Shown here in pieces: positions 7,837 through 28,010 of a stretch of 28,086 bases of DNA. The notes under the pieces are model-generated. The model did not search any database and had not been told where the DNA came from. It saw only the letters and a list, made by a program, of their open reading frames with translations. Position 1 is the first letter of the stretch. Every line of letters starts with the position of its first letter. Source of the DNA: a virus; IMG/VR virus record IMGVR_UViG_3300024299_000044, positions 1 to 28,086 of that record, one strand, 5' to 3'. Made by a program: the position numbers and the translations under genes.

Positions 7837-8633
7837 TCTGCTGTTAAAGGTAGATCCATATCATTTTTTTCTTCACAATGCATACAATGAAAAGAAATTT
7901 TAGTCTCTAAACCCCATTCTTCATTAAGAATGGAATTCCGAAGTTTTGAAACATCTTGTGCAGGTAATTTTTTAACGAAAGCTCTAATAATATCTTTGTC
8001 TTCAATATCCTCTACCCTGTTCACAAATCTCCACAAATTATCCATGAGCTTAGAAGGTTTGGTTATCAGGTCTTCATCTCTTGATCTAGGTACCGTTACT
8101 TCTACGTTTCTCTTAGACCCAGGGAGAAATAGTTGTTTTACAGTGCATGCCTTTTCATCAATATAATTAACAGTTAGCTCATTAATAGGGATAATCATCT
8201 CATTGGGTTCCTCACAGTGTAAACAATTTAAAAGAACATTATAATCTGTACCATACGAAATTTCTCTCAACTTGAATAAAAGATAGATTTTATCTGGTAA
8301 CGTAAGATCAAGAATGGATACTCCCTTTACACACTTCCCCATCATATTGTTAATAATGTTTTTACCTCCTATTTTGGAAGAGGATAAAAGCATTTTCTCT
8401 TCTTCATAAGTAAAAGGTTTAATCATTACTTTTGTATCTTCTTCATAAAACACATTTTTTGAAGGAAGCACAATTTCAATAAAATCATTATTCACTTCTG
8501 AAAGTAAACCTGAAAGGATATCTTTTTTTGTGGTATCAACAGGGATACCAGGAGTAGGAGTAGTAGCTTCTTTGCTTCCATGATACTTTTCAGCGAAAAG
8601 ATCTCCAAGAGTTTTATTATTTTCTTCGTTCAT
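7809..8633 (-). CDS. Baseplate hub assembly chaperone, gp26/gp51-like (T4 base plate protein family), 0-frame product
   Basis: 274 residues. Two CxxC pairs are visible, LLNCLHCEEPNEM near residue 140 and SFHCMHCEEKNDM near residue 255, and they could bind one or two metal ions. The segment FIEIVLPSKNVFYEEDTKVMIKPFTYEEEKMLLS opening the core is typical of the T4 base plate family that includes gp26. In T4, gp26 and gp51 are needed to build the central hub. The N-terminal 45 residues are polar and probably disordered. The last codons contain the slippery site, so this is probably the shorter of two products. There is no Shine-Dalgarno sequence: TATTAT lies 6 nt before the ATG. It is the head of the minus-strand unit 8633-6663. 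Confidence 0.75.
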   Translation of the reverse strand: MNEENNKTLGDLFAEKYHGSKEATTPTPGIPVDTTKKDILSGLLSEVNNDFIEIVLPSKNVFYEEDTKVMIKPFTYEEEKMLLSSSKIGGKNIINNMMGKCVKGVSILDLTLPDKIYLLFKLREISYGTDYNVLLNCLHCEEPNEMIIPINELTVNYIDEKACTVKQLFLPGSKRNVEVTVPRSRDEDLITKPSKLMDNLWRFVNRVEDIEDKDIIRAFVKKLPAQDVSKLRNSILNEEWGLETKISFHCMHCEEKNDMDLPLTADFFSASSEN

Positions 8634-8677
8634 ATTACTATAATAGGGAGTAACCCCTATTCATTATTATAGTTAGT
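8634..8677. promoter_or_regulatory. Divergent, palindromic promoter region between hub chaperone and UvsW-like helicase
   Basis: The 44-nt gap is an imperfect palindrome: ACTATAAT (8637-8644) pairs with ATTATAGT (8666-8673), with AATAGGG and CCCTATT inside. Each arm places a TATTAT box just before a start codon: 8645-8640, 6 nt from the ATG at 8633, and 8665-8670, 7 nt from the ATG at 8678. Neither gene has a ribosome binding site in this gap. The two genes therefore probably share a symmetric divergent promoter or operator and give leaderless messages. The palindrome could also bind a regulator. Confidence 0.5.
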
Positions 8678-10033
8678 ATGCAAATCATAAAAGATAATAT
8701 TTATACAAGATTGGTTAAATGTGATAAAGAGTTATTATCTTTATTAGTAAAAAAGTATAGTTTTAAAATCCCTAATGCTTATTTTGCCTCCAAAGGACGA
8801 GGAGGTTGGAATGGTACTCAACAATTTATTACTAAAGGTGGCCGATTAGGCACTGGTATTATTGACGAAGTTTTGGACGATCTTTCCACTGTGAATGCTC
8901 AATACACTTTAAAAGATAACACAACTAGTATCCCTTCTATAAACCGTAACCCTTTACCAGGTGTCACTTTACGGCACTACCAAGAAAGTGCTTTATCGGC
9001 TATTGAAAGGAATAATTTTAGAGGAATTATAAAAGCACCTACAGGGTCAGGTAAAACTCTTATTTTAGCTAGTGTTGCAAATTATTTTAAAGACTCTATA
9101 GGAGTTATTTTTTTTACTAAAAAGCAGATTTTGTTTCAAACTTACAAGGAATTCCAAAAACTAGGTATTGACTGTGGTATTGTGTGTGGAGAGGCTAACG
9201 ATATTAAACCAATCACTCTTTGCACTATCCAGTCAGTAGACAAGATTTTAGATAGTCATGTAGACCACGCAGAGTTTATCCTTTATGACGAAATTCACGA
9301 GTTTGGAAAAGGGAAACTTTCTAAAAGCTGCTTAAAGTCCTTTAAGAAGGCTGCTGTTCGCCTTGGTTTCTCAGCAACACCACCGAAGGAGATTACACAC
9401 GATTACTCTGTACGCTCCTTCTTAGGCCCTCTCATTTACGACTTAAAGGCTGCTGTCCTTATTGAGGAAGGCTTCTTAGCTAAACCCAAAATTAAAGTGG
9501 TAACAGCTAAAGAACCTGCAGGTTATACTTCAGAAGTAGGGGTTCCTTACCCAGAGGTGTATAACGATTTCATTATTAATAATAAGAATAGGAATAAACA
9601 AATATGTGATATTGTAGACTCTTATGAGGAAGGAAGATTTTTAATATTAACAAAGAATTTAGAACATGCACACATATTAAAGGATCTTATTCCAAATTCT
9701 TTTCAACTAGAAGGAAAGGATTCCTTACTTACACGAAGGCAAACAATAGAAGACTTCAAAACCAAAAATAAGAAAACTGTTCTTATAGGTACAGTAATTC
9801 TTCAAACGGGAGTAGATATCCCTGAAATTACTCACTTCATTAATGCTAGAGGAATGAAGTCAGAAATAGCTACTATTCAAGCTATTGGTAGGTCTTTACG
9901 TATTAGTGAAGGAAAAACAGAAGCCACTATCTTTGATTTTTATGATGATGCTATGTACTTAGCATCCCACTCAAAGAAAAGACTAAAACATTATAAAAGT
10001 GAAGACTTTGACATAGAGAATTATGAAAACTAA
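8678..10033 (+). CDS. uvsW: SF2 DNA helicase, UvsW-like
   Basis: 451 residues. The helicase motifs are in order: Walker A APTGSGKT (residues 120-127), motif Ia IFFTKKQILFQTYKEF, motif II DEIH (204-207), motif III FSATP (231-235), motif V TVILQTGVDIPEITHFI and motif VI AIQAIGRSLRISEGK. The N-terminal 85 residues, with GRGGWNGTQQFITKGGRLGTGI, resemble the small DNA-binding domain that precedes the ATPase in T4 UvsW. UvsW unwinds branched DNA and R-loops, regresses forks, and shifts T4 from origin-dependent to recombination-dependent replication. The start has TATTAT 7 nt upstream and no Shine-Dalgarno sequence. The stop overlaps the next gene's start by 11 nt. The length is a little below T4 UvsW. 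Confidence 0.85.
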   Translation: MQIIKDNIYTRLVKCDKELLSLLVKKYSFKIPNAYFASKGRGGWNGTQQFITKGGRLGTGIIDEVLDDLSTVNAQYTLKDNTTSIPSINRNPLPGVTLRHYQESALSAIERNNFRGIIKAPTGSGKTLILASVANYFKDSIGVIFFTKKQILFQTYKEFQKLGIDCGIVCGEANDIKPITLCTIQSVDKILDSHVDHAEFILYDEIHEFGKGKLSKSCLKSFKKAAVRLGFSATPPKEITHDYSVRSFLGPLIYDLKAAVLIEEGFLAKPKIKVVTAKEPAGYTSEVGVPYPEVYNDFIINNKNRNKQICDIVDSYEEGRFLILTKNLEHAHILKDLIPNSFQLEGKDSLLTRRQTIEDFKTKNKKTVLIGTVILQTGVDIPEITHFINARGMKSEIATIQAIGRSLRISEGKTEATIFDFYDDAMYLASHSKKRLKHYKSEDFDIENYEN

Positions 10034-10247
10034 AAAAGAAGAAAAAGATCGTTTAAATAAGATTTCCATTGAAGACAAAGAAGAACTTCAAAGTTTAATT
10101 CATAAAATTGAATTTCTTATAAAGAAAGGGGAGATAACAGAAGAAACTTTAAAAGAGTTGCAAGCTTTAATCGTTCATTTAATGATTAAGAGAGAGCAGT
10201 ACTTTTATAGACTGCTCTCTCTTCTTAAACAAGGGTATCAGGAATAG
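10023..10247 (+). CDS. Small helical protein after the helicase, 74 aa (unknown)
   Basis: Not recognised. It is highly charged and helical (KTKKEEKDRLNKISIEDKEELQSLIHKIEFLIKKGEI, then TLKELQALIVHLMIKREQYFYRLLSLLKQ), with a Leu/Ile heptad pattern suggesting a coiled coil or helical hairpin. Its ATG lies inside the last codons of the UvsW-like gene (11-nt overlap), so translation is coupled. T4 has a small ORF (uvsW.1) linked to uvsW; this may be a positional analogue, but I see no sequence evidence of homology. The last codons form a 13-bp hairpin. It ends exactly where the convergent minus-strand gene ends (10247/10248). Confidence 0.65.
   Translation: MKTKKEEKDRLNKISIEDKEELQSLIHKIEFLIKKGEITEETLKELQALIVHLMIKREQYFYRLLSLLKQGYQE
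10188..10223. terminator. 13-bp perfect hairpin at the convergent gene ends
   Basis: AAGAGAGAGCAGT (10188-10200) and ACTGCTCTCTCTT (10211-10223) are perfectly complementary around a 10-nt loop. The structure lies within the last codons of the 74-residue plus-strand gene and 25 nt beyond the end of the minus-strand 10248 gene. It is symmetric, so it could end or stabilise transcripts from both sides. There is no clear U-run on either strand, so intrinsic termination would be weak. Confidence 0.5.
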
Positions 10248-11978
10248 TTACTCATCATACATATCCCTTTCCTCTGTATCAATGTCAGACCCTGGCATCC
10301 CTGTTAACAGTTCCTCGATATCTTTAACTAAGTGCATAAGCTCCTCAGGGTTAGTTGTTGCTGAATCAACACCTCCAGGGGTAGGCGACTCTTCTTGCTC
10401 CATTCCCTCTTCAGGAGGCATTCCTTGCTCCGTTCCTTGCTCCATTCCTTGCTCCGTTCCTTGCTCAGGGGGCATTCCTTGCGCAGAAGGGTCTTCCTGT
10501 TGTTCCATCTCTTCTTGAGCAGCATCGGGGTCTGGTACGTCATCTTGAGCTATCTGCTGCTCTTCTCCTTGCCCCATTCCTTGCTCTTCTTGTTCCCTTC
10601 CTTGCTCTTCTTGTTCCCTTCCTTGCTCTTCTTGTTCCATCCCTTGCTCAGGGGGCATTCCTTCTTCTGCTTCTCCTTGACTTACACCTCCTCCTTGGGA
10701 GCTAAGAACATTCTTTATTCGCATTAAATCATCTTTAATTTTTCCTAAATTAAGATAACTTTCTTTTAACAAATTATTCTCGCTTAGTAGAATTGTTATC
10801 ATATCATTAACAAATAATAAATCAATGCCTTGTTTTGCTTTGACTTCTTTTGAGCATTCAACAAGAACATCTGAAAGAATACTAGTAGGAGGGCAAAGGC
10901 TGGATAGTTCCTTTAAGATATTAGTATGAAGTTTACCTAAACTTTTTAAAGATGGAGTTTCTTTGATGGTATTGAGAGCAATACCATGCTTTTCATTTAG
11001 GGCATCTGTTAAGAATTCTTTATATACTTTCTTACTTTCGAATAGGGATTTAACTAACTTATTTAGATCCTTCTTTGCAATAGCAGATTCTCCATTCACT
11101 ATAAAATGAGTCTCTACTAATTCTTGTAACTCTTTCTTATTCAAAAAAGCAAAGTAAGGGTACTTTGTGATAGTTCTCTCTAAAATATCTTCGAAGTCAT
11201 TTGCATCCTCTTCTGCAATATGAGTTATCAATTCTGTAATAAGTTCAGCACTAGTCCAAGAAGAGTATAAAGAGTTTTTACTTTCATATAGCTCTTTCTT
11301 TAAAAATTCTTGTTTACATACAATGTCAAACAAAGGGCTATCTAAGTCCTCCTTTAAAAAGACTTGAGTAGTTCCTACTAGTTCGTCAAGAGTAAAAGTA
11401 GTATTAACACTTAAACTATCAGAAATTGTGGAAGCTAGGTGAATATTCTCTAAAAGTTCCTTATTCCCATTAATAGTCTTTTCATTAGCTTTAAAGAATT
11501 TGGAGACAAGATCTTTAACCTCAAATAATTTAAAGAAAGGTGTTTTATTTATAGCATCCATCTTAGCTATATTTTCTTTTAGACTGATTTTATTTTTAAC
11601 TTCATCCAAATGAATTCGGTATTCAAAAGAATCGAGTAAACTATTAAAAGACTCATGCATATCCGTAAAGGAAGATTCTTTAGTAGCTTCTATTAAGTGT
11701 TTAATCTTCTCGTTGATAATCTGATTAAAGGGTTCTTCTGATGTAAAGGATGTAACATCAGTTATATTAATATCTGCTAAAGTAATCGATTCAGAATCTG
11801 CCTCATACTTTGCTTTAATAATATTTTCTGTTTCAGTTAAGAACATAGCTTCTTGATTCAAAACATCGACATCAAAAAGTACTACGTTTTCTCTTAAAAC
11901 TCGTCCTAAATATACGCTTCCCTTTAAAAGATTAAGGTAAGTTTTATCTCTGTTTTCGAATAATGATTGAATTTGCAT
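10248..11978 (-). CDS. Large acidic capsid-operon protein with EQGMPPE-type repeat tail (scaffold or core candidate)
   Basis: 576 residues, directly downstream of portal on the same strand. Residues 1-425 are helical, with many Lys/Glu/Leu segments (LIEATKESSFTDMHESFNSLLDSFEYRI; NLLKESYLNLGKIKDDLMRIKNVLSS). Residues about 430-545 are a low-complexity acidic tail of EQGM, PPEQG and EEQGREQ repeats, followed by a short helical, very acidic end (ELMHLVKDIEELLTG...). In the T4 order, core and scaffold genes (67, 68, 21, 22) follow portal gene 20, so a prohead core or scaffold role is a reasonable guess. The N-terminus MQIQSLFEN contains L-F-E, matching the T4 prohead protease rule (L/I-x-E). No protease motif is seen. 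A neck or tail structural protein is the main alternative. Confidence 0.6.
   Translation of the reverse strand: MQIQSLFENRDKTYLNLLKGSVYLGRVLRENVVLFDVDVLNQEAMFLTETENIIKAKYEADSESITLADINITDVTSFTSEEPFNQIINEKIKHLIEATKESSFTDMHESFNSLLDSFEYRIHLDEVKNKISLKENIAKMDAINKTPFFKLFEVKDLVSKFFKANEKTINGNKELLENIHLASTISDSLSVNTTFTLDELVGTTQVFLKEDLDSPLFDIVCKQEFLKKELYESKNSLYSSWTSAELITELITHIAEEDANDFEDILERTITKYPYFAFLNKKELQELVETHFIVNGESAIAKKDLNKLVKSLFESKKVYKEFLTDALNEKHGIALNTIKETPSLKSLGKLHTNILKELSSLCPPTSILSDVLVECSKEVKAKQGIDLLFVNDMITILLSENNLLKESYLNLGKIKDDLMRIKNVLSSQGGGVSQGEAEEGMPPEQGMEQEEQGREQEEQGREQEEQGMGQGEEQQIAQDDVPDPDAAQEEMEQQEDPSAQGMPPEQGTEQGMEQGTEQGMPPEEGMEQEESPTPGGVDSATTNPEELMHLVKDIEELLTGMPGSDIDTEERDMYDE
10395..10680. 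repeat. Low-complexity repeats encoding the Gln/Glu/Gly/Met/Pro tail
   Basis: On the plus strand, units such as cttgctcc(a/g)ttc and cttgctcttcttgttccc recur many times. In the coding (minus) frame they give EQGM, EQGT, EQGREQE and MPPEQG. Three nearly identical 21-nt units lie around 10575-10640. These tandem repeats are prone to length change by slippage and cause the long spurious open frames seen here on the other strand. Confidence 0.75.
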
Positions 11979-11999
11979 AAAGTGTAGCCTTGCTATTAG

Positions 12000-12007
12000 T
12001 TATATAG
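12000..12007 (-). promoter_or_regulatory. CTATATAA late-type promoter element upstream of the 11978 gene
   Basis: CTATATAA on the minus strand (12007-12000) lies about 22 nt before the ATG at 11978. The same octamer precedes other minus-strand units in the window and resembles the T4 late promoter TATAAATA. AAGG about 9 nt before the ATG gives a weak ribosome binding site. The spacing would allow a short leader. Confidence 0.55.
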
Positions 12008-12043
12008 ATTTTAGTTTAATTATATTTTAATTTTTTTGAAAAA

Positions 12044-13759
12044 TTATCTTGGAGCCGCTTGGGGGGGTAGTTGTTCCCCCTCAATATCCGATTCCATTCC
12101 TGGGGAAGGTTGTCCTGGCATATTTGGATCCATCATATTTGGATCCATCATATTTGGATCCATCCCTTGCATTGAAGGATCCATCCCTTGCATTGAAGGA
12201 TCCATCCCTTGCATTGAAGGGTCCATTTGGGGTTGCATTGCTGCTTGTTGTTCTGCTAACTCCATTTGTTCCTCTTTTACCTTCTTCTTCATGTCCTCAA
12301 TTTCTTTATCTGTCATGTTAAAGTAAGTTTTATACAAATACTCATCAGAGAAAAGTTGAAGTCCTTTTACCGCTTGAACAACCCTTGTTTTGTTATCATC
12401 TAATTCTAAGCGTCTTTTTTCATAAATGTCGGAAGGAGGACTTAAAAAGATTTTAAAATCACGTAAAGACATAGAAGGGAACCTACGTAGTTTAAGATGT
12501 CTTTTTACCATAGTAGTTAACCCTATCTCTACTTCCCTCTGTAACCTAACAACTGCTCTAGCAAACTTAACGTCTAATTGAGATAAATTAGCCTTACGTT
12601 CTGGGGATCCATCTTTTTCGACAATAAAGTCTTTTGGAACTTTAAGAGCGGATAGCAGTTTATCTCTAAAGTATTTAACATCCTCAACCTCTCCTAGGTT
12701 CTGAGCTCCAGGCAAAGTTTCAATACGGGATGCTTTACTATCTTTTCTTGTGGGAACAAAGTAATCTTCATCTGCAGACAAAGGGTTGTATCTTTCATCT
12801 ACTGCCTGTGTTCTAGGGTCAAAGAACTTTTCCTTTTTGAATTTGGCTTTTTGTCTTTCAATAAAAGCTTCGGCTTTGGAGGCTGGCATGTTACCAATAT
12901 CAATATAAAAGACTCGTCTTTCAGGAGCACGAGTCAATCGATATACTAACATTGCCTCTTCCATTAGGCGTAAAGATCTAAAAGCTTGCATGGCAGAAGA
13001 AAGAATAGATTTACCATACGGATAAAAACCAGGATCAGAGTTGTGGATTCTAAAGTGAACAATTTGATTTTTATCAAGAAAAATATGCTTTTTAGGAATA
13101 GTGTTAGAAGGCATATCTAAGTTTAAATCCCTAGGAATCTCTTGAATAAAGTTTTTTAAGTAACCAAATGCATTCTCAGCACGTAAAAGATAATTAGGAT
13201 TAAGAATCTTTAATCTTTGAATTCCAAGTTCAGGTCTTTTTAGATTAAAAATAGTCTCAATAAAGCAATCTCCATACTTAGCTGTATTCCTAATAATGTC
13301 CCAAAGTACTTTTTCTATCTCTATCTTTTTAAATAAGGATTCAACTTCACTTTGGAGATAAGAATCTGGAGTCTCAATGTTGATCATTTTTCCTTCAATA
13401 GATTTTTGGGAGCTATCATCTGCGTAAATATCCAAAGCAGCATTAATTTCAGGAAAATGGTCCATATCCTCAAATTCAGCATATCTTTTCTTTCTTTCAT
13501 ATTCGTAAGAAGGAAGCTTATGAATCCCCCGCACCATTCCTGGTGCGAAGCCTTCTGTATCCAGAAGCTCTTCGGCTTTATAGGTATCACCTCTAAGCTC
13601 TTTGTCTGGTTTATGAGTAGGTCTACCAGGACGGGCGAAGAATTTTGCTAATAGCTTACCAAAAAGACCTGTTGGGTCTTGGTTTGGGGGGTGAATTCCT
13701 CCTGCTTTAGAGGCGAATTCAGTATAAGATTCGTTTAAGTTTTTATCGTCTTGGTCCAT
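12044..13759 (-). CDS. 20: Portal protein, gp20-like
   Basis: 571 residues, slightly longer than T4 gp20 because of a repeat tail. Recognisable family stretches include YEYERKKRYAEFEDMDHFPEI and INAALDIYADDSSQKS, DCFIETIFNL, VHFRIHNSDPGFYPYGKSIL, LMEEAMLVYRLTRAPERRVFYIDIGNMP and FIVEKDGSPERKANLSQLDVKFARAV. The portal is the dodecameric ring at the capsid vertex through which DNA is packaged and ejected, and where head assembly starts. The C-terminus (residues about 505-560) is a run of MDPSMQG and MDPNM repeats. It follows terminase with a 17-nt overlap; a GGTGG about 5 nt before the ATG is the only ribosome-binding candidate. Synteny terminase-portal agrees with T4 genes 17 and 20. Confidence 0.9.
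   Translation of the reverse strand: MDQDDKNLNESYTEFASKAGGIHPPNQDPTGLFGKLLAKFFARPGRPTHKPDKELRGDTYKAEELLDTEGFAPGMVRGIHKLPSYEYERKKRYAEFEDMDHFPEINAALDIYADDSSQKSIEGKMINIETPDSYLQSEVESLFKKIEIEKVLWDIIRNTAKYGDCFIETIFNLKRPELGIQRLKILNPNYLLRAENAFGYLKNFIQEIPRDLNLDMPSNTIPKKHIFLDKNQIVHFRIHNSDPGFYPYGKSILSSAMQAFRSLRLMEEAMLVYRLTRAPERRVFYIDIGNMPASKAEAFIERQKAKFKKEKFFDPRTQAVDERYNPLSADEDYFVPTRKDSKASRIETLPGAQNLGEVEDVKYFRDKLLSALKVPKDFIVEKDGSPERKANLSQLDVKFARAVVRLQREVEIGLTTMVKRHLKLRRFPSMSLRDFKIFLSPPSDIYEKRRLELDDNKTRVVQAVKGLQLFSDEYLYKTYFNMTDKEIEDMKKKVKEEQMELAEQQAAMQPQMDPSMQGMDPSMQGMDPSMQGMDPNMMDPNMMDPNMPGQPSPGMESDIEGEQLPPQAAPR
12119..12225. repeat. Two adjacent in-frame tandem repeats in the portal tail (15-bp x3 and 21-bp x3)
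   Basis: Three copies of tatttggatccatca (about 12121-12165) encode MDPNM-type units. Next to them, three copies of the 21-nt unit beginning tccatcccttgcattgaagg (about 12159-12221) encode MDPSMQG. Copies are almost identical at the DNA level, which suggests recent expansion. Both unit lengths are multiples of three, so the reading frame is kept. Confidence 0.85.
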
Positions 13760-15266
13760 ATAACCACCGTAAGTCTTCCTTATCCATATTTTTATTTACC
13801 CTTGAGATCATCGCTCTTTGTGGGTTATTCTGAAAAGTTTTTTCAGGACTCTTACTTTCTCCTACTGAATACTCAATAGGGGAAAAGTCTAAGATGTCTT
13901 TAAATGCGTAACAGGTTAAAGCTAAACTCATAGTAAGATCATCATTGTAACCTACCTCAGCTTCGATTTTGTTATTTTCAGTAATGATAAAAGTAAGAAG
14001 TTCCTTAACTGTACGCTCAGAATTAACTTTGATCTTATTATTACGCACAAATTCTTCTAGAGAAGCAAGAATACCATCTCTGTTATGTGTTGTTACCGTA
14101 AGCCCCAGCTGGTTTTTTGTATCATCCATCCAAAGATTTTCATATTCAAGTTCTTCAAAAAGTATTCTTAAAAGTTCGATACCTATTCCATTGCGTTCCA
14201 CAATCATGTAAGCAGTGTTATACCAATCTCCCTCGTACTTTAGGATATTACCAAAATCCTTTACAGAAGTTTTGTTAGAATAAAATTCAGCTACTTGCTC
14301 TCCTGTATAAATGTCAATAATATGAAAAGCTGAGTAATCTTTTTCAACCCCAAGGGAAACATCTACACCAATAACATATTCTTTAAAGGGTTCGGGGTCT
14401 TTCCAAACACGCATTCTGTTATTGTACTTAATATCAAAATCGTCATTAAAGTTATCCTTAAGTACTTTAAGGGTTCCTCCATCAATAAAAGTATCACCTG
14501 TGCCTAAAAAGTTGCACTCATACTCTTGCAACCATCTCTTTTCTCCAATATTTCTTCTTGTTTCAATAGACCACTCCTTCGTATAGTCGGGGTGTTGCTG
14601 CCAAAAAATATCAATCACGTTAAATGAGTTTCCTCCTTCTTTCGCTTTATGGTAGAATTCATAGTACCAATTAGCCATTCCATTAACAGTTGAAAGGATA
14701 ACAGCTTCCCCTCCTGTCGATATAGTAGGGAAAATAGCAGCCCAGAAGACTTCCATATTATCAATAAAAGCTGCTTCATCAACTATAAGAACAGATATAG
14801 ATTCACCACGACCAGCAGAGTCAGAAGAAGGAATAGATTTGACTTGACTATTATTTGATAGTTTCAAAGTATGTTTGTTTCTTTCGTCTACACCAATCTT
14901 GAGAAATTCAGGAAGTTCATCATACATTCTCCATACTCTAGAAAGAAATGCTGTAGACTCACGTTCACCAATTGAAACAATAAGAACTGATTTCTCAGTT
15001 TTGAATAAAGTATACCATAAGGAGTAAGCACAACAAATAGTGGTAATTCCTGCTTGCCTAAACTTTTTAATAATATTAAATCTGTTAGCATCAAAGTCAG
15101 TAACAATACTTTGCTGGAATTTGTAGAGATCAAAAGGGACTAATCCTTTAACAGGATGAACTACTTTGATATATGTGGATATAAAATAAACAGGGTCCTT
15201 ACTACACTTTTCTATCTCTTTTTCAATTTCTTTTAAAGTATTTTTGATAAGTTCTTTGTTAGCCAT
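13743..15266 (-). CDS. terL: Terminase large subunit, gp17-like packaging ATPase/nuclease
   Basis: 507 residues. The ATPase part shows the adenine/Walker A region IIKKFRQAGITTICCAY (residues about 60-75, an RQxGxTT variant of the Walker loop), Walker B VLIVDEAAF and the coupling motif ILSTVNGMANW. The RNase H-like nuclease part shows GVDVSLGVEKDYSAFHIID (first Asp), MIVERNGIGIELLR (Glu) and GYNDDLTMSLAL (last Asp). The enzyme docks on the portal, pumps DNA into the prohead and cuts it at headful. It lacks the long N-terminal extension of T4 gp17. It heads the minus-strand unit terminase-portal-10248 and starts in a palindromic divergent region; TATAAT lies only 2 nt before the ATG. Confidence 0.93.
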   Translation of the reverse strand: MANKELIKNTLKEIEKEIEKCSKDPVYFISTYIKVVHPVKGLVPFDLYKFQQSIVTDFDANRFNIIKKFRQAGITTICCAYSLWYTLFKTEKSVLIVSIGERESTAFLSRVWRMYDELPEFLKIGVDERNKHTLKLSNNSQVKSIPSSDSAGRGESISVLIVDEAAFIDNMEVFWAAIFPTISTGGEAVILSTVNGMANWYYEFYHKAKEGGNSFNVIDIFWQQHPDYTKEWSIETRRNIGEKRWLQEYECNFLGTGDTFIDGGTLKVLKDNFNDDFDIKYNNRMRVWKDPEPFKEYVIGVDVSLGVEKDYSAFHIIDIYTGEQVAEFYSNKTSVKDFGNILKYEGDWYNTAYMIVERNGIGIELLRILFEELEYENLWMDDTKNQLGLTVTTHNRDGILASLEEFVRNNKIKVNSERTVKELLTFIITENNKIEAEVGYNDDLTMSLALTCYAFKDILDFSPIEYSVGESKSPEKTFQNNPQRAMISRVNKNMDKEDLRWLYGPRR

Positions 15267-15298
15267 CTATTATAACCTATAGGTATATATAATCTCTT
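15267..15298. promoter_or_regulatory. Divergent terminase/glycosyltransferase promoter region centred on ACCTATAGGT
   Basis: The 32-nt gap holds a perfect 10-bp palindrome ACCTATAGGT (15275-15284) flanked by ATTATA on the left and TATATAAT on the right, so the whole is near-symmetric. On the plus strand TATAAT (15288-15293) is 5 nt before the ATG at 15299. On the minus strand TATAAT (15274-15269) is 2 nt before the terminase ATG. No Shine-Dalgarno sequence serves either gene. The layout echoes the 8634-8677 region. Confidence 0.5.
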
Positions 15299-16054
15299 AT
15301 GAACAAACATGCAATAATTTCCACACGAGACGAAAATAAGTCTCAAACCTTACAAGATCTTGAAAAGTATTACGAAGAAGCAGGCTTTACAGTACACACT
15401 GTAGAAGGAGCGTCCTCTATGCTTGAGGCATATAATTCTAAATTAAAAGAATTAGAAATCTTTAGTAAAGATATTATAGTATTTTCTCATGATGATATTG
15501 AAATTTTAGTAACTCAAAAAATGTTTAATACCGTTCTGGAAGAAACTTTAGCAAATAAAAAAATTGGTTTTGCAGGGGTTGCAGGTACTAAACTTTTATC
15601 AGAGGAAGCTACCTGGTGGGATATGGACCTCTGGAGACAAGGCTTACACTCTGGAATGGTAATGCATGGAGACGATTTTAAAAAACAAACTATTTATGGA
15701 CCTCACGGGGACGTTGTTGTTTGTGACGGAGTATTTATGGCGTGTACAGGGAAAACGATCAAAAGTTTAGATTTTAAGCATCCAGAGTACTTACCTAAGG
15801 GTTGGGATTTCTATGATCTTCACTTGTCTATCCTAGCGTTGGAAGAAAATCTAAAAAATATGGTAATGCCTCTTCTTATACGCCATGCTTCTGGCGGAAT
15901 GGGAGCTGCAGCTCCTGCTGGCGACTGGCAAGAAAATAGAAGTAAGTTCAAAGAGAAATGGGGAGAAAAGCTTCCTTTAATGACTCCACATGTAAGGCAG
16001 GTTATAGAACAACTTAAGAAGCAGCAACGTGAGAAAGAACAAACTATTCCTTAA
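15299..16054 (+). CDS. Glycosyltransferase-like protein (GT-A fold, StrF-type / Glyco_tranf_2_5 candidate)
   Basis: 251 residues. The N-terminal strand HAIISTRDENKS and the later DIIVFSHDDIEIL give the nucleotide-sugar fold with a D-D pair in the place of the DxD metal-binding motif. They are followed by KKIGFAGVAGTKLLSEEATWW, VFMACTG and LPKGWDFYDLHLSILALEEN, a combination typical of the small GT-A family that includes StrF-like and hyaluronan-synthase-related proteins. The conserved 'GWDFYDLHLS' is the clearest signature. The product probably transfers a sugar to phage DNA, a phage protein or the host surface; the acceptor cannot be read from the sequence. TATAAT is 5 nt before the ATG. The downstream ORF starts inside its last codons. 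Confidence 0.7.
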   Translation: MNKHAIISTRDENKSQTLQDLEKYYEEAGFTVHTVEGASSMLEAYNSKLKELEIFSKDIIVFSHDDIEILVTQKMFNTVLEETLANKKIGFAGVAGTKLLSEEATWWDMDLWRQGLHSGMVMHGDDFKKQTIYGPHGDVVVCDGVFMACTGKTIKSLDFKHPEYLPKGWDFYDLHLSILALEENLKNMVMPLLIRHASGGMGAAAPAGDWQENRSKFKEKWGEKLPLMTPHVRQVIEQLKKQQREKEQTIP

Positions 16055-24959: not shown

Positions 24960-25349
24960 TTACTTGGTGTCTTCTCCAAAGACAGGTTTTGTATCAGGAA
25001 AAGCCTTTCCGCCAGGGTAACGACCTGAAGAATTTCCTTGTTCAACGGCCCAGCGTCTGTTTTTGTTCGTTTGTAAACTACCTGGGGCTTTCCCCCCTCC
25101 TTGTTGGCTATCAATTCTTCTAGTTAATCGGGCAGAAATATTACCTCGCCGTTGAGGTTCAGCTATTGCTTTACCTAGAGCTTTCACAGGTTTAGCAACT
25201 GTTCCTTTTAACTTTCTAAAAAAATCCGTTATTTTGTTTGTTGGTTTTTTAGGAGCACTATCTTTACCAGTAACAAGACGCATTACTTTAGGTATATTAG
25301 TAAGAGTTCGAGTACTAGACTCCTCCGTTATTAAATTGATTTTTATCAT
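24960..25349 (-). CDS. Small basic protein with MIKINLITE leader, 129 aa (internal head protein candidate)
   Basis: The N-terminus MIKINLITEE matches those of the 25701 and 26189 proteins, while the bodies differ. The remainder is basic and flexible (VTGKDSAPKKPTNKITDFFRKLKGTV; RRGNISARLTRRIDSQQGGGK). In T4, internal proteins IPI-III and Alt carry a short N-terminal capsid-targeting sequence cut by prohead protease after L/I-x-E; ITE-E fits this rule at residue 9. Its own CTATATAA (25402-25395) and a leader with a poly-A loop hairpin precede it. The internal-protein role is inference. Confidence 0.65.
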   Translation of the reverse strand: MIKINLITEESSTRTLTNIPKVMRLVTGKDSAPKKPTNKITDFFRKLKGTVAKPVKALGKAIAEPQRRGNISARLTRRIDSQQGGGKAPGSLQTNKNRRWAVEQGNSSGRYPGGKAFPDTKPVFGEDTK

Positions 25350-25419: not shown

Positions 25420-25701
25420 TTACTTCTTCTTCATAAGCTTTTTCAGTTTACCGTAAGTACCCTTAGCAATGTTTTTGGTTGTATCATAAGTGTGAGGAAT
25501 AGCCAAACCTGTTGCTAATCCTGACATAGGATCTAAACCTACAAGAGGAGCTGCTAAAGAGGCAGCTGCACCTGCACCTACAGTTTGCGCCAAAAGTTTG
25601 TCAGAATGATCACTTTTTTTGTATTCATCCACTCCCTTTTTCGCTACCTTTTTTACAGTGTCCCGAACCTTGCCTTCACTTACTAAGTTAATTGTAATCA
25701 T
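25420..25701 (-). CDS. Small protein with MITINLVSE leader and Gly/Ala hydrophobic segment, 93 aa
   Basis: The leader MITINLVSEG is shared with its neighbours. After it come a basic helix (KVRDTVKKVAKKGVDEYKKS), a long Gly/Ala/Leu segment (TVGAGAAASLAAPLVGLDPM, then SGLATGLAI), and a basic end (GKLKKLMKKK). The hydrophobic part resembles membrane-active glycine-zipper segments found in injected or colicin-like peptides. If the leader is a capsid-targeting peptide, this would be a packaged protein that meets the host membrane on infection. The start overlaps the 26189 gene's stop as TAATG. Confidence 0.65.
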   Translation of the reverse strand: MITINLVSEGKVRDTVKKVAKKGVDEYKKSDHSDKLLAQTVGAGAAASLAAPLVGLDPMSGLATGLAIPHTYDTTKNIAKGTYGKLKKLMKKK

Positions 25702-26189
25702 TACTTATCTTCCCCATTATACGTAACTGCTCCTTTCAGATAAGGGGTGTTCATTCCTCTGGGGGGAGTACCTCTATGAGGAGTGTCATTAGCAGACCCT
25801 AAGACTCTTCTTTTGTGCACAGGAACAGCAGTGGCTACATTGCCAGCTGTACGTTCTGCTTCAGCCTTTTGAGTAAGCATACCTTTTTTAGCTCCAAGAG
25901 CAGCTATCCTACCCAATTGAGACTTAACGTCACCCCCTGATTTGTTAGGGTTAATAGTAAGCCTATTATCCCTTGCTCCCCACTTAGTAACATTTTGCAT
26001 AGCACCAAACTGCGCTCTAGCCTTCCCTGTACTCTGGGAAGCGGATCCAGCTACAGGTTTACTATTATAGTTTAAAACGTTAGGGTGGCGGTATGCATCC
26101 ACTGCTGCAGTCTTACCATAATTGTGAGCTAGTCTTTTTAAGGTTCCCCTTGTATCCCTGTCTTCTGTTATTAAGTTAATTGTAATCAT
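25701..26189 (-). CDS. Basic protein with MITINLITE leader, 162 aa (internal head protein candidate)
   Basis: It has the same leader (MITINLITED) followed by a basic, Gly/Ala/Asn-rich body without recognisable domain (RGTLKRLAHNYGKTAAVDAY; GSASQSTGKARAQFGAMQN; VPVHKRRVLGSANDTPHRG). Possible cleavage after I-T-E (residue 9). It heads the minus-strand unit that runs left from 26230. Its promoter octamer is 34 nt upstream. Function unknown; composition and leader suggest packaging in the capsid with DNA. Confidence 0.65.
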   Translation of the reverse strand: MITINLITEDRDTRGTLKRLAHNYGKTAAVDAYRHPNVLNYNSKPVAGSASQSTGKARAQFGAMQNVTKWGARDNRLTINPNKSGGDVKSQLGRIAALGAKKGMLTQKAEAERTAGNVATAVPVHKRRVLGSANDTPHRGTPPRGMNTPYLKGAVTYNGEDK

Positions 26190-26222: not shown

Positions 26223-26250
26223 TTATATAGGAGTCCCTTAAATAAGGGAC
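26223..26250 (-). promoter_or_regulatory. Hairpin (GTCCCTT/AAGGGAC) followed by CTATATAA promoter
   Basis: GTCCCTT (26233-26239) pairs with AAGGGAC (26244-26250). Two bases further on the minus strand comes CTATATAA (26230-26223), 34 nt before the ATG at 26189. This is the right-most member of the hairpin-promoter series and marks the boundary of the large minus-strand region. Confidence 0.65.
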
Positions 26251-26344: not shown

Positions 26345-26496
26345 TGGATATTTTGATTTGATTTGATTTGATTTGATTTATTGGGATTTTATTTGTGATT
26401 TGATTTTGATTTGATTTGATTTTAATTTTATTTGTGATTTGATTTGTGATTTTATTTGTGATTTTGATTTGATTTGTGATTTGTGATTTTATTGTG
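26345..26496. repeat. C-free GATTT / TTTGTGA repeat tract, 152 nt
   Basis: The plus strand contains no C across 152 nt. It begins with five exact GATTT units (26355-26379) and continues as a mixture of GATTT, GATTTT and TTTGTGATTT units. It is extremely AT-rich and strand-asymmetric, with no ORF. Such tracts melt easily and favour R-loops; candidates are a replication origin or unwinding element, or an unstructured RNA leader. It lies in the 550-nt gap between the minus-strand unit and the hairpin-rich ORF. Confidence 0.85.
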
Positions 26497-26739
26497 CGTC
26501 CTATTACCTAGAGATACGGTGCACACAGTTCTCTTATTGGAGTCCCTTAAGTGCGATATCGTCCGATAGGCTTAAAAGCATATAGTGAAAATCATATATC
26601 TTGCTGCACCGTTAATAGGTGGTAAACTATTTGCGTTATAATAAAATTATGGTATTATATAAACATGGCAAGAGACACTTAAGTTTGTTGCCATAAGGCA
26701 TTTTCGCCTAAGTCATTGTTACCTATAGGAGATTAAACA
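26497..26739 (+). promoter_or_regulatory. Structured leader/promoter region of the hairpin-rich ORF
   Basis: No gene is seen here. ACGGTGCA (26516-26523) is the exact inverse of TGCACCGT (26605-26612), a 97-nt long-range pair. CGATATCG lies near 26554. A TATAAT (26637-26642) about 10 nt after the repeated element at 26606-26626 is the likely -10 box. The transcript leader would be about 90 nt with ACTTA..TAAGT and AGGC/GCCT stems, and ends in AGGAG 8 nt before the ATG at 26740, the strongest ribosome site in the window. Confidence 0.5.
26606..26628 (+). repeat. Diverged copy (copy 3) of the CACGACTAATAGATGGTAAAT element
   Basis: CACCGTTAATAGGTGGTAAAC matches 16 of 21 positions of the two near-identical copies at 27309-27334 and 27985-28010. 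It lies just upstream of a TATAAT box at 26637, in the position of a -35 or activator site. Confidence 0.5.
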
Positions 26740-27252
26740 ATGAATAAAAGACCTGTTAAATGGGTCTCGTTCCTCAAAGATGCATTGCTTCAATGCACTT
26801 TGTGGAAGAAGAACCCATCCCTCTCTTCGGAAGAGAGGGAGTTTATGCAAGAGTTTCGACGCGCAGACAGGCGCGTTGAAACTCTTAAACGGAGACTCGC
26901 AGAAACTCAAAGTTTCTGCGAGACTTCAGTTGACCGATTCCTTGCCCTCGAGGGCAAGGTACGGTCAAATGCGGAGGCAGCGTCAACCGTCGACTCCGTC
27001 GACGCGACCCTGTTCAAAGCCTTAATGACAGCCCGAGGGCTGTCATTCGAGCCAGGCGAGGCCGCTGAAATAGTGGCCTTGTTTTATGAGGCCGAAGGAC
27101 GAAAATTCGTCCTTCTGCCAAATAGCGAAACCGTAGTGCGAGCGCAATGCTCGCCCCTTGGGCAGATGGCCAGTTCTCTAGCCCCATGGCTAGAGAACAA
27201 TACTCCCCATCCTCCAGAAGAGGATGGGAAAGAGAATCAAGCATCCGCTTGA
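26740..27252 (+). CDS. 170-aa ORF composed of consecutive perfect hairpins (unknown protein, possibly dual RNA/protein)
   Basis: AGGAG lies 8 nt before ATG and the frame stays open for 170 codons up to the terminator, so translation is likely. The peptide has a Glu/Arg-rich helical, coiled-coil-like stretch (SSEEREFMQEFRRADRRVET; LKRRLAETQSFCETSVDRFL), an Ala/Glu helix (LSFEPGEAAEIVALFYEAEG) and an acidic end (PPEEDGKENQASA). No family is recognised. The DNA is far more GC-rich than the rest of the window and is almost wholly made of inverted repeats, many in register with codons (for example CTC GCA GAA ACT, CAA, AGT TTC TGC GAG). Another view is that the ORF is incidental to a large structured RNA. 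Its opposite-strand frame (27014-27244) is taken as a shadow. Confidence 0.6.
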   Translation: MNKRPVKWVSFLKDALLQCTLWKKNPSLSSEEREFMQEFRRADRRVETLKRRLAETQSFCETSVDRFLALEGKVRSNAEAASTVDSVDATLFKALMTARGLSFEPGEAAEIVALFYEAEGRKFVLLPNSETVVRAQCSPLGQMASSLAPWLENNTPHPPEEDGKENQASA

Positions 27253-27292
27253 TTCCTAGAATCCCTAGAATACTCTTGTATTCTAGGGATTC
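26762..27292 (+). ncRNA. Hairpin array: about 14 consecutive stem-loops (large structured RNA candidate)
   Basis: Perfect or G-U-completed stems, in order: 26781-26797 (inside an imperfect 26762-26817 stem), 26819-26839, 26851-26884 (14 bp, one wobble), 26896-26922 (12 bp), 26930-26968 (two-tier), 26988-27004, 27025-27046 (10 bp), 27057-27081, 27090-27119, 27138-27154, 27173-27198 (11 bp), 27206-27228 (9 bp), 27234-27255 (9 bp), 27259-27292 (15 bp). By hand count about 60% of bases are in stems. Promoter upstream and terminator downstream define one transcript. Resemblance to large ornate phage RNAs such as GOLLD or ROOL is in style only; no homology was tested. Confidence 0.6.
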
Positions 27293-27301
27293 ATCTTTTT
27301 T
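27259..27301 (+). terminator. Strong intrinsic terminator, 15-bp perfect stem plus T6
   Basis: GAATCCCTAGAATAC (27259-27273) and GTATTCTAGGGATTC (27278-27292) pair perfectly around tctt. A short gap and TTTTTT (27296-27301) follow. It is the best-formed intrinsic terminator in the window and lies 7 nt after the stop of the hairpin-rich ORF. Confidence 0.9.
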
Positions 27302-27308
27302 CTACACA

Positions 27309-27334
27309 GAGCGCACGACTAATAGATGGTAAAT
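27309..27334 (+). repeat. Copy 1 of the GAGC(A/G)CACGACTAATAGATGGTAAAT element
   Basis: 25 of 26 bases are identical to copy 2 at 27985-28010. Both are followed by an inverted repeat built on AATCTAAA / TTTAGATT. It begins 8 nt after the terminator. Possible promoter box, protein-binding site or RNA motif. Confidence 0.8.
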
Positions 27335-27536
27335 AATCTAAATTACAAAATAAATCAGATTTGATTTAGATTATTTTAATATTAAAAATAACCCTAAAAG
27401 AAAAATAGTTAGGGGGCTAACTTTATTAACCCCTTAACTAAATTACCCTTATTTAACTGCCCTTAATCGGGCAGGACATTATCTTAGAAAAAAGATAATG
27501 CGTAGAAACCTTTCCTTAGTGGGTAAAATCTAAGGA
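27332..27536. other. Non-coding string of five hairpins
   Basis: No gene is seen between 27303 and 27592. It holds stems 27332-27343/27364-27375 (12 bp), 27406-27416/27430-27440 (11 bp with one wobble), 27457-27462/27469-27474 (6 bp), 27477-27485/27492-27500 (9 bp) and 27513-27519/27530-27536 (7 bp). The series continues the hairpin style of the adjacent ORF without an open frame, which suggests structured RNA or a cis-acting DNA region. Confidence 0.65.
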
Positions 27537-27543
27537 TTGGTGT

Positions 27544-27577
27544 GAAGTCCCAAGGATATTAATATCCTTGGGACTTC
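27544..27577. repeat. 34-bp perfect palindrome P1
   Basis: GAAGTCCCAAGGATATT is followed by its exact reverse complement with no spacer. The inner 20 bp, CAAGGATATTAATATCCTTG, are shared with P2, one base away. It could extrude as a cruciform or fold as a hairpin RNA. Confidence 0.9.
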
Positions 27578-27578
27578 C

Positions 27579-27610
27579 AAAAGTCAAGGATATTAATATC
27601 CTTGACTTTT
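27579..27610. repeat. 32-bp perfect palindrome P2, probable bidirectional terminator
   Basis: AAAAGTCAAGGATATT is followed by its exact reverse complement. The flanking AAAA/TTTT give a short U-tract in both directions. The stop codon of the minus-strand 71-residue gene (27593-27595) lies at the palindrome centre, so the gene's last codons form part of the stem. Confidence 0.85.
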
Positions 27611-27808
27611 CCAATAAGCATCGTACTCTTCCGCTCTCTGCGGAAAATAGTATCGCCATTTTTCAGTTAACCTTCCAAGAAAAGGCGCACCGTGCTCATC
27701 ATGACGCAACTCATGCATGGCAAAACGCTCGCCACTTTCAAGTTCATACTCAACTTGCCCTTGCGTTCCGCCGTATTCAACAATGTGAATTACTTTTGGT
27801 ACTTCCAT
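27593..27808 (-). CDS. Unknown small acidic protein, 71 aa
   Basis: It starts MEVPKVIHIVEYGGTQGQVE and continues YELESGERFAMHELRHDEHG, ending EKWRYYFPQRAEEYDAYWKS and QGY. AGGAGG lies 8 nt (all A) before the ATG, a near-ideal ribosome binding site. I do not recognise a family; the first half could be a small beta-hairpin fold (IHIVEYGG...VEYELESGE), the second half an acidic/aromatic helix. The plus-strand frame over the same region (27568-27828) lacks a ribosome site and is rejected. A 70-type promoter lies about 90 nt upstream, and the 5' leader has AACATAAA/TTTATGTT and GGTTT/AAACC stems. The coding region also contains hairpins (TTCCGC/GCGGAA at 27630-27646). It ends within palindrome P2. 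Confidence 0.7.
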   Translation of the reverse strand: MEVPKVIHIVEYGGTQGQVEYELESGERFAMHELRHDEHGAPFLGRLTEKWRYYFPQRAEEYDAYWKSQGY

Positions 27809-27984: not shown

Positions 27985-28010
27985 GAGCACACGACTAATA
28001 GATGGTAAAT
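27985..28010 (+). repeat. Copy 2 of the CACGACTAATAGATGGTAAAT element
   Basis: Differs from copy 1 by one base in 26. It is followed by AATCTAAA (28015-28022) and TTTAGATT (28038-28045) and a TAAAAT at 28019. No gene is seen from 27922 to the window end; the element probably controls something just beyond the right edge. Confidence 0.8.

Follow-up and report, generated by a model that had tools for sequence, protein, structure and literature searches.

At one end of a phage contig of 28,086 nucleotides (IMG/VR record IMGVR_UViG_3300024299_000044, positions 1 to 28,086; hereafter the window), an open reading frame runs through a dense succession of stem-loops. A frame and a fold that share the same nucleotides might reflect a large structured RNA in which the ORF is incidental, a messenger that governs its own translation or decay by folding, or a dual-function RNA, all three of which were raised in a preliminary description of the sequence; we asked which of them the locus represents.

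Genomic setting of the locus

The 28-kb record belongs to a T4-like phage: its terminase and portal match T4-type Pfam families, and the terminase is ~34–37% identical to those of Microcystis phages and marine cyanophages. Close contigs exist around the terminase only, one (L062) sharing 99.3% identity across 8201–14182 and another (L002) 71% across 12300–15592. From 26.2 kb onward, minus-strand late genes yield to plus-strand units with hairpin strings.

Three adjacent late-side genes on the minus strand (25420–26189 and 24960–25349) begin with near-identical N-terminal peptides, MITINLITE, MITINLVSE and MIKINLITE. The end of such peptides resembles the T4-type prohead-protease cleavage motif; they may be cleaved propeptides, and the proteins capsid-internal. 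Between these divergent late genes and the first plus-strand unit (unit 1), immediately upstream of the hairpin gene, sits a low-complexity, strand-biased tract of ATTTG/ATTTGTG tandem repeats (26350–26493). The sequence GGAGTCCCTTAA is present twice, at 26232–26250 and 26540–26551, its first copy belonging to a terminator-like hairpin beside a late-promoter-like TATATAAAAG on the minus strand. Elsewhere, in-frame tandem repeats with units of 12–24 bases lie towards the C-terminal end of both the portal gene and its neighbour (10421–10649 and 12119–12226), where they encode Gln/Glu/Gly- and Met/Asp/Pro-rich tails.

Extreme local folding through the hairpin gene

Unit 1 has the following layout, drawn from the predicted fold, the palindromes, the ORF list and a terminator call:

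26665–27292, plus strand: unit 1, a predicted transcript of ~18 consecutive hairpins, of which the terminator hairpin is the last (fold)
26713–26743, plus strand: predicted start-site hairpin, with the AUG in the stem and the Shine-Dalgarno GGAG in a 15-nt loop, 26721–26735
26740–27252, plus strand: ORF of 170 codons through the hairpins, without recognisable family (ORF list, structure-keeping null)
26744–26759, plus strand: longest unpaired run in the predicted fold, 16 nt, immediately 3' of the start codon
26819–26839, plus strand: perfect hairpin in the ORF; the inverted repeat with 11-base arms spans 26818–26840 (fold, palindromes)
26841–26890, plus strand: hairpin in the ORF, 20 pairs including an uninterrupted 15-bp helix (fold)
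26891–26927, plus strand: hairpin in the ORF, with a perfect core of 12 bp (fold, palindromes)
26930–26968, plus strand: hairpin in the ORF; its core, 26940–26959, has 10-base perfect arms without a spacer (fold, palindromes)
27024–27047, plus strand: perfect hairpin in the ORF, arms of 11 bases (fold, palindromes)
27054–27084, plus strand: hairpin with G-U at 5 of its 14 pairs, which would become A-C mismatches on the other strand (fold)
27094–27115, plus strand: perfect hairpin in the ORF, arms of 10 bases (fold, palindromes)
27173–27198, plus strand: perfect hairpin in the ORF, arms of 11 bases (fold, palindromes)
27206–27228, plus strand: perfect hairpin in the ORF, arms of 9 bases (fold, palindromes)
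27234–27255, plus strand: perfect hairpin with the stop codon, arms of 9 bases (fold, palindromes)
27259–27292, plus strand: intrinsic terminator of unit 1, a 15-bp perfect stem and then the T run ATCTTTTTTC (terminator call)

The 601 nt from 26710 to 27310 have a predicted folding energy of −306 kcal/mol, against −176.9 ± 6.7 in dinucleotide shuffles (z = −19.2). With the protein and codon usage of the ORF held fixed, z is −13.1 (200 permutations) or −14.3 (60 permutations), and 12 other genes in the window, permuted likewise, range from −2.1 to +2.4. When the DNA is scanned in 373 stretches of 150 nt, whose mean z is −0.7, the 12 lowest z all fall inside 26701–27675. Perfect stems of at least 8 bp make up 44% of one 500-nt stretch in the unit 1 region, versus 19% in the next-best such stretch among ~2.5 Mb of fetched phage DNA, a set with some overlap that comprises related contigs, jumbo-sized contigs, Microcystis phage Mel-JY01 and 50 kb of T4. 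The dense run of stem-loops through the ORF is thus confirmed and is stronger than the preliminary description claimed: local folding is extreme, beyond the demands of protein or composition. The hairpins are indeed consecutive; it is the end points first given for them, 26740 and 27301, that shift, the string beginning at ~26665 and a second string reaching ~27610.

By the same code as we used for the RNA phages MS2 and Qbeta, the ORF is 72% paired, with 5.9% G-U. Helices are almost all perfect, with two mismatches only, both in extended helices, and uninterrupted helices in unit 1 reach a maximum of 15 bp. Several stems had appeared to be in codon register; pairs are spread over the three registers as 71/62/52, the codon register (62) being second commonest and not enriched, and we rejected a codon-register design. 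Pairs without a wobble position amount to 42%, a share equal to that in MS2/Qbeta that does not discriminate, and G-U pairs number 8/77 where no wobble position is available versus 3/108 (Fisher p = 0.054), a difference that is suggestive only. Because the two strands fold alike (−415.2 and −415.5) and the tract is equally exceptional under DNA folding parameters (z = −20.7), RNA is not proven as the acting form.

Read by eye, the loops of unit 1 have no common motif, from which it would seem that structure as such is what matters. The hairpins are unrelated in sequence, and a palindromic repeat element family was rejected on that ground.

The longest unpaired runs of 26665–27292 are the 16 nt after the start codon and the 15-nt Shine-Dalgarno loop; the third is 7 nt, compared with a median of 12 and a minimum of 8 for the third-longest run in 60 shuffles of unit 1. 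In the predicted fold, then, the RNA is closed apart from the ribosome landing site. GC content is 57.6% in paired bases and 37.8% in unpaired ones, the latter about the level in the rest of the window, and the shift is similar across all three codon positions. Since GC is raised in paired bases alone, the GC-richness first noted for the tract is real but resides in the stems, not in foreign DNA, and a foreign GC-rich insertion was rejected because unpaired bases show phage composition; since all codon positions shift equally, protein sequence has yielded to the stems as much as synonymous sites have.

A protein-coding frame within the structure

Of 20,000 shuffles that keep base pairs and loops, 0.04% retain an open frame, and in none is this combined with a composition as protein-like as that observed. 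Scored against the phage's other genes, the amino-acid composition stands at +3.3 bits (null −28 ± 8), and a six-frame comparison agrees with the real frame. A period-3 signal is present at a level below most genes of this phage (p = 0.0065), a weakness expected if the stems and the codon structure make competing demands. We take the ORF to be, very probably, a genuine gene, with 170 codons, a stop codon, a Shine-Dalgarno GGAG and a stem-and-T-run terminator. With the frame so seldom open by chance and never equally protein-like, we rejected an incidental ORF, and a large structured RNA carrying one is likewise disfavoured because the only two accessible stretches form the ribosome site.

Relatives of the protein were sought widely. 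No homologue was found by tblastn in phages or plasmids; neither viral contigs nor genome contigs yielded one with the whole protein or a 70-aa part, nor did the complete records of 43 contigs that are related or bear the box, and the equivalent region in relatives, sought through neighbouring genes, was not reached. The analysis therefore concerns one sequence. Comparison with Pfam, PHROGs, NCBIfam, PADLOC and PDB gave no family, a PHROG match to a coiled-coil part (E = 0.029) being discarded as weak and PDB matches at E 0.2–0.44 also discarded. An AlphaFold2 model built without an alignment is helical and of low confidence (pLDDT 49.5).

A promoter-like box and a second hairpin string

A short box recurs at this end of the contig, ahead of unit 1 and of a further hairpin string, unit 2:

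26613–26626, plus strand: box TAATAGGTGGTAAA of unit 1, then TTATAATAAAAT (exact copy of TAATAGRTGGTAAA)
27320–27333, plus strand: box copy 2, ahead of unit 2 (exact copy of TAATAGRTGGTAAA)
27996–28009, plus strand: box copy 3; the contig ends before whatever follows (exact copy of TAATAGRTGGTAAA)
27345–27615, plus strand: unit 2, an AT-rich hairpin string, apparently non-coding on the plus strand (z = −10.2)
27331–27376, plus strand: further AT-rich stem overlapping the promoter-like region of unit 2 (fold)
27544–27577, no strand assigned: perfect palindrome, 17 bp (palindrome list)
27579–27610, no strand assigned: perfect palindrome, 16 bp, AAAA...TTTT, in a bidirectional-terminator layout (putative terminator)
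27593–27808, minus strand: convergent 71-aa gene, its last codons and stop inside the 27579–27610 palindrome (ORF list)

Exact matches to TAATAGRTGGTAAA number three across the window and all lie at this end; with up to two mismatches there are 8 matches versus 1.1 expected. About 10 nt after each box copy comes a TATAAT-like sequence. In T4 middle promoters a −10 element is preceded by an activator box; by analogy, TAATAGRTGGTAAA may be promoter-like, an activator box ahead of its own −10 element. Of the promoter originally ascribed to the gene, what stands is this pairing of box and TATAAT-like sequence, but a sigma-70 scan called no promoter at the box. A 17-base box scan gave matches in 13 contigs, with nothing comparable in the parts of them examined, and these matches were taken as chance.

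No convincing ORF was found on the plus strand of unit 2. Two neighbouring palindromes of this unit are the only ones with a common core. The convergent 71-aa ORF has a strong Shine-Dalgarno, GGAGG, and is unmatched in phages, viral contigs and family libraries.

What the hairpin string may be for

The reading we favour, though only tentatively, is that the mRNA and frame of this T4-like phage gene have been shaped together into an unbroken hairpin string that leaves the ribosome-binding site single-stranded, most likely as a shield against nucleases. Structure and coding alike have been demonstrated computationally. If shielding is their function, as we infer, single-strand-specific endonucleases (the host's RNase E and RNase LS, RegB-type phage nucleases, toxin RNases) would find few sites, exposed only where ribosomes load. 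RNase III prefers roughly two helical turns, and helices of at most 15 bp would stay short of that preference. Ribosomes would melt the hairpins singly, with hairpins re-forming behind them, and unit 2 would be a non-coding RNA of like design behind the same kind of box. The internal duplex would act as antisense cover does, within one molecule; Prochlorococcus phage transcripts reportedly escape RNase E because antisense RNA covers them almost completely, on the account of Stazic et al. as cited in PMC9692554. In T4 mRNA decay, RNase E is a main actor, and RNase LS cleaves single-stranded sites, for which masking by structure is presumed (PMC3014915). The string starts where a transcript from the 26613 box would be expected to start, and finishes in the terminator. 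It counts against shielding that the tract is confined to this contig end, when other genes should be affected too if messages generally needed protection from RNases, and that translation opens hairpins. Among the possibilities first proposed, the best fit is a structured mRNA that regulates its translation or decay through its own folding, with decay favoured; a dual-function RNA is possible.

The structure might instead work in trans: its hairpin strings would bind or titrate a protein, be it a decay factor, a defence sensor or a binder of double-stranded RNA, and what the ORF encodes would be accessory. A similar non-coding string does adjoin, as unit 2, and phages produce structured RNAs bound by host sensors (cabRNA, PMC10686824); yet a frame kept far past chance, a ribosome site that is the sole accessible part, and loops without a common motif for a binder to read lead us to consider such a role unlikely. 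We give less credence still to a translational brake or self-control, by which stems would delay ribosomes or allow initiation to be switched, so that little is made of a protein that is harmful or must be well timed; that protein might itself bind the mRNA that encodes it. The AUG is paired in 26713–26743, with the Shine-Dalgarno in its loop, and stems lie inside the translated part, as a brake would have it; one or two stems near the start would do, however, where 18 run up to the terminator, and unit 2, with no convincing plus-strand ORF, appears not to be translated.

The equal folding of both strands, the few G-U pairs (5.9%), the z of −20.7 under DNA parameters and the palindromes without spacer would all suit hairpins that act at the DNA level, as single-stranded or cruciform DNA in recombination, replication or protein binding on both strands. 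Because the string matches transcript borders and spares the ribosome site, the unit 1 hairpins have no sequence in common, and one helix depends on G-U for 5/14 of its pairs, we judge this improbable, and less likely than a role for RNA. Nor need there be a function at all if template switching at imperfect inverted repeats keeps producing perfect palindromes; arms that are nearly all perfect, with two mismatches only, in extended helices, and the two neighbouring palindromes with a common core, are in keeping with such an origin. It would leave unexplained the open, protein-like frame, the spared ribosome site and the limits at promoter and terminator, and we know of no mutational hot spot of such density; we regard it as very unlikely. 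Hardest to credit is an assembly or amplification artefact, in which fold-back chimeras formed at a metagenomic contig end: the tract does lie 0.8 kb from that end, and the sole near-identical contig (L062, 99.3%) spans 8201–14182, short of it, but fold-backs do not leave short palindromes in such number and variety together with a Shine-Dalgarno, a terminator and a protein-like frame that is still intact, and the unpaired bases retain phage composition.

A broader proposal, which we hold more loosely, is that DNA phages may be able to evolve 'armoured' mRNAs, hairpin strings co-evolved with the protein and open at the ribosome site only, together with like-designed non-coding RNAs that have the same type of promoter, and so withstand RNA decay, whether due to the host or induced by the phage. 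The protein might even take part in a takeover of the host that degrades RNA and that its own mRNA has to withstand. The locus would be a natural case of protein and RNA structure optimised within the same 170 codons; it makes testable whether structure alone protects a phage message from decay yet permits translation, and offers a strong natural template for the study of ribosome passage through stable stems.

Comparison with known systems

To our knowledge, no dsDNA phage gene with an all-hairpin mRNA has been described, and literature searches, confined to open-access papers, returned no precedent. The newness of the gene is judged by the yardsticks below and that literature, and falls if similar genes are known elsewhere.

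A comparison with the large ornate RNAs GOLLD and ROOL had been drawn, and like them (PMC12286853) the locus specifies a large, highly structured phage-encoded RNA. The likeness goes little further: their fold is elaborate and pseudoknotted, whereas unit 1 has simple local hairpins (as seen by a predictor blind to pseudoknots), a coding frame runs throughout its ORF, and no tRNA, and so no tRNA cluster, occurs anywhere in the window. Against Rfam, the whole window gave no match at gathering cut-offs, and a permissive search gave sub-threshold matches only, to families other than GOLLD, ROOL and OLE. The cabRNA sensed by CBASS is, similarly, a phage transcript that derives from protein-coding genes and contains several hairpins (PMC10686824), but its source is terminase genes, and the hairpin gene is separate, much more hairpin-dense and without sign of sensing. 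Antisense-covered Prochlorococcus transcripts, as PMC9692554 relates them, share the proposed effect, duplex RNA keeping RNase E away from a phage message, although the duplex there forms with a second transcript and here would be intramolecular.

Rickettsia palindromic elements also place hairpins inside open frames; they are copies of one repeat, whereas the unit 1 hairpins have unrelated sequences.

A further parallel is with the Leviviricetes. Run through the same code, coding stretches of 513 nt from MS2 and Qbeta, plus the 393-nt MS2 coat gene, have z of −4.3 to −9.5, 61–69% of bases paired and 7–16% G-U; windows of phiX174 have z of −0.7 to −3.2. As in these RNA phages, a coding RNA lies in dense local hairpins with z well under that of ordinary genes, and the share of pairs without a wobble position is comparable. 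Unlike them, the hairpin gene belongs to a dsDNA phage: its contig has a T4-type terminase and portal, and the ORF matches no replicase, coat or maturation protein (Pfam, PHROG, NCBIfam, PDB). G-U pairs are fewer than in MS2 and Qbeta (5.9%), and perfect stems, at most 9.6% there, take up 44% of 500 nt here. The resemblance to ssRNA phages drawn at the outset therefore holds and is surpassed, for at z = −14.3 the hairpin gene is more structured than MS2 and Qbeta, which usually serve as the textbook examples.
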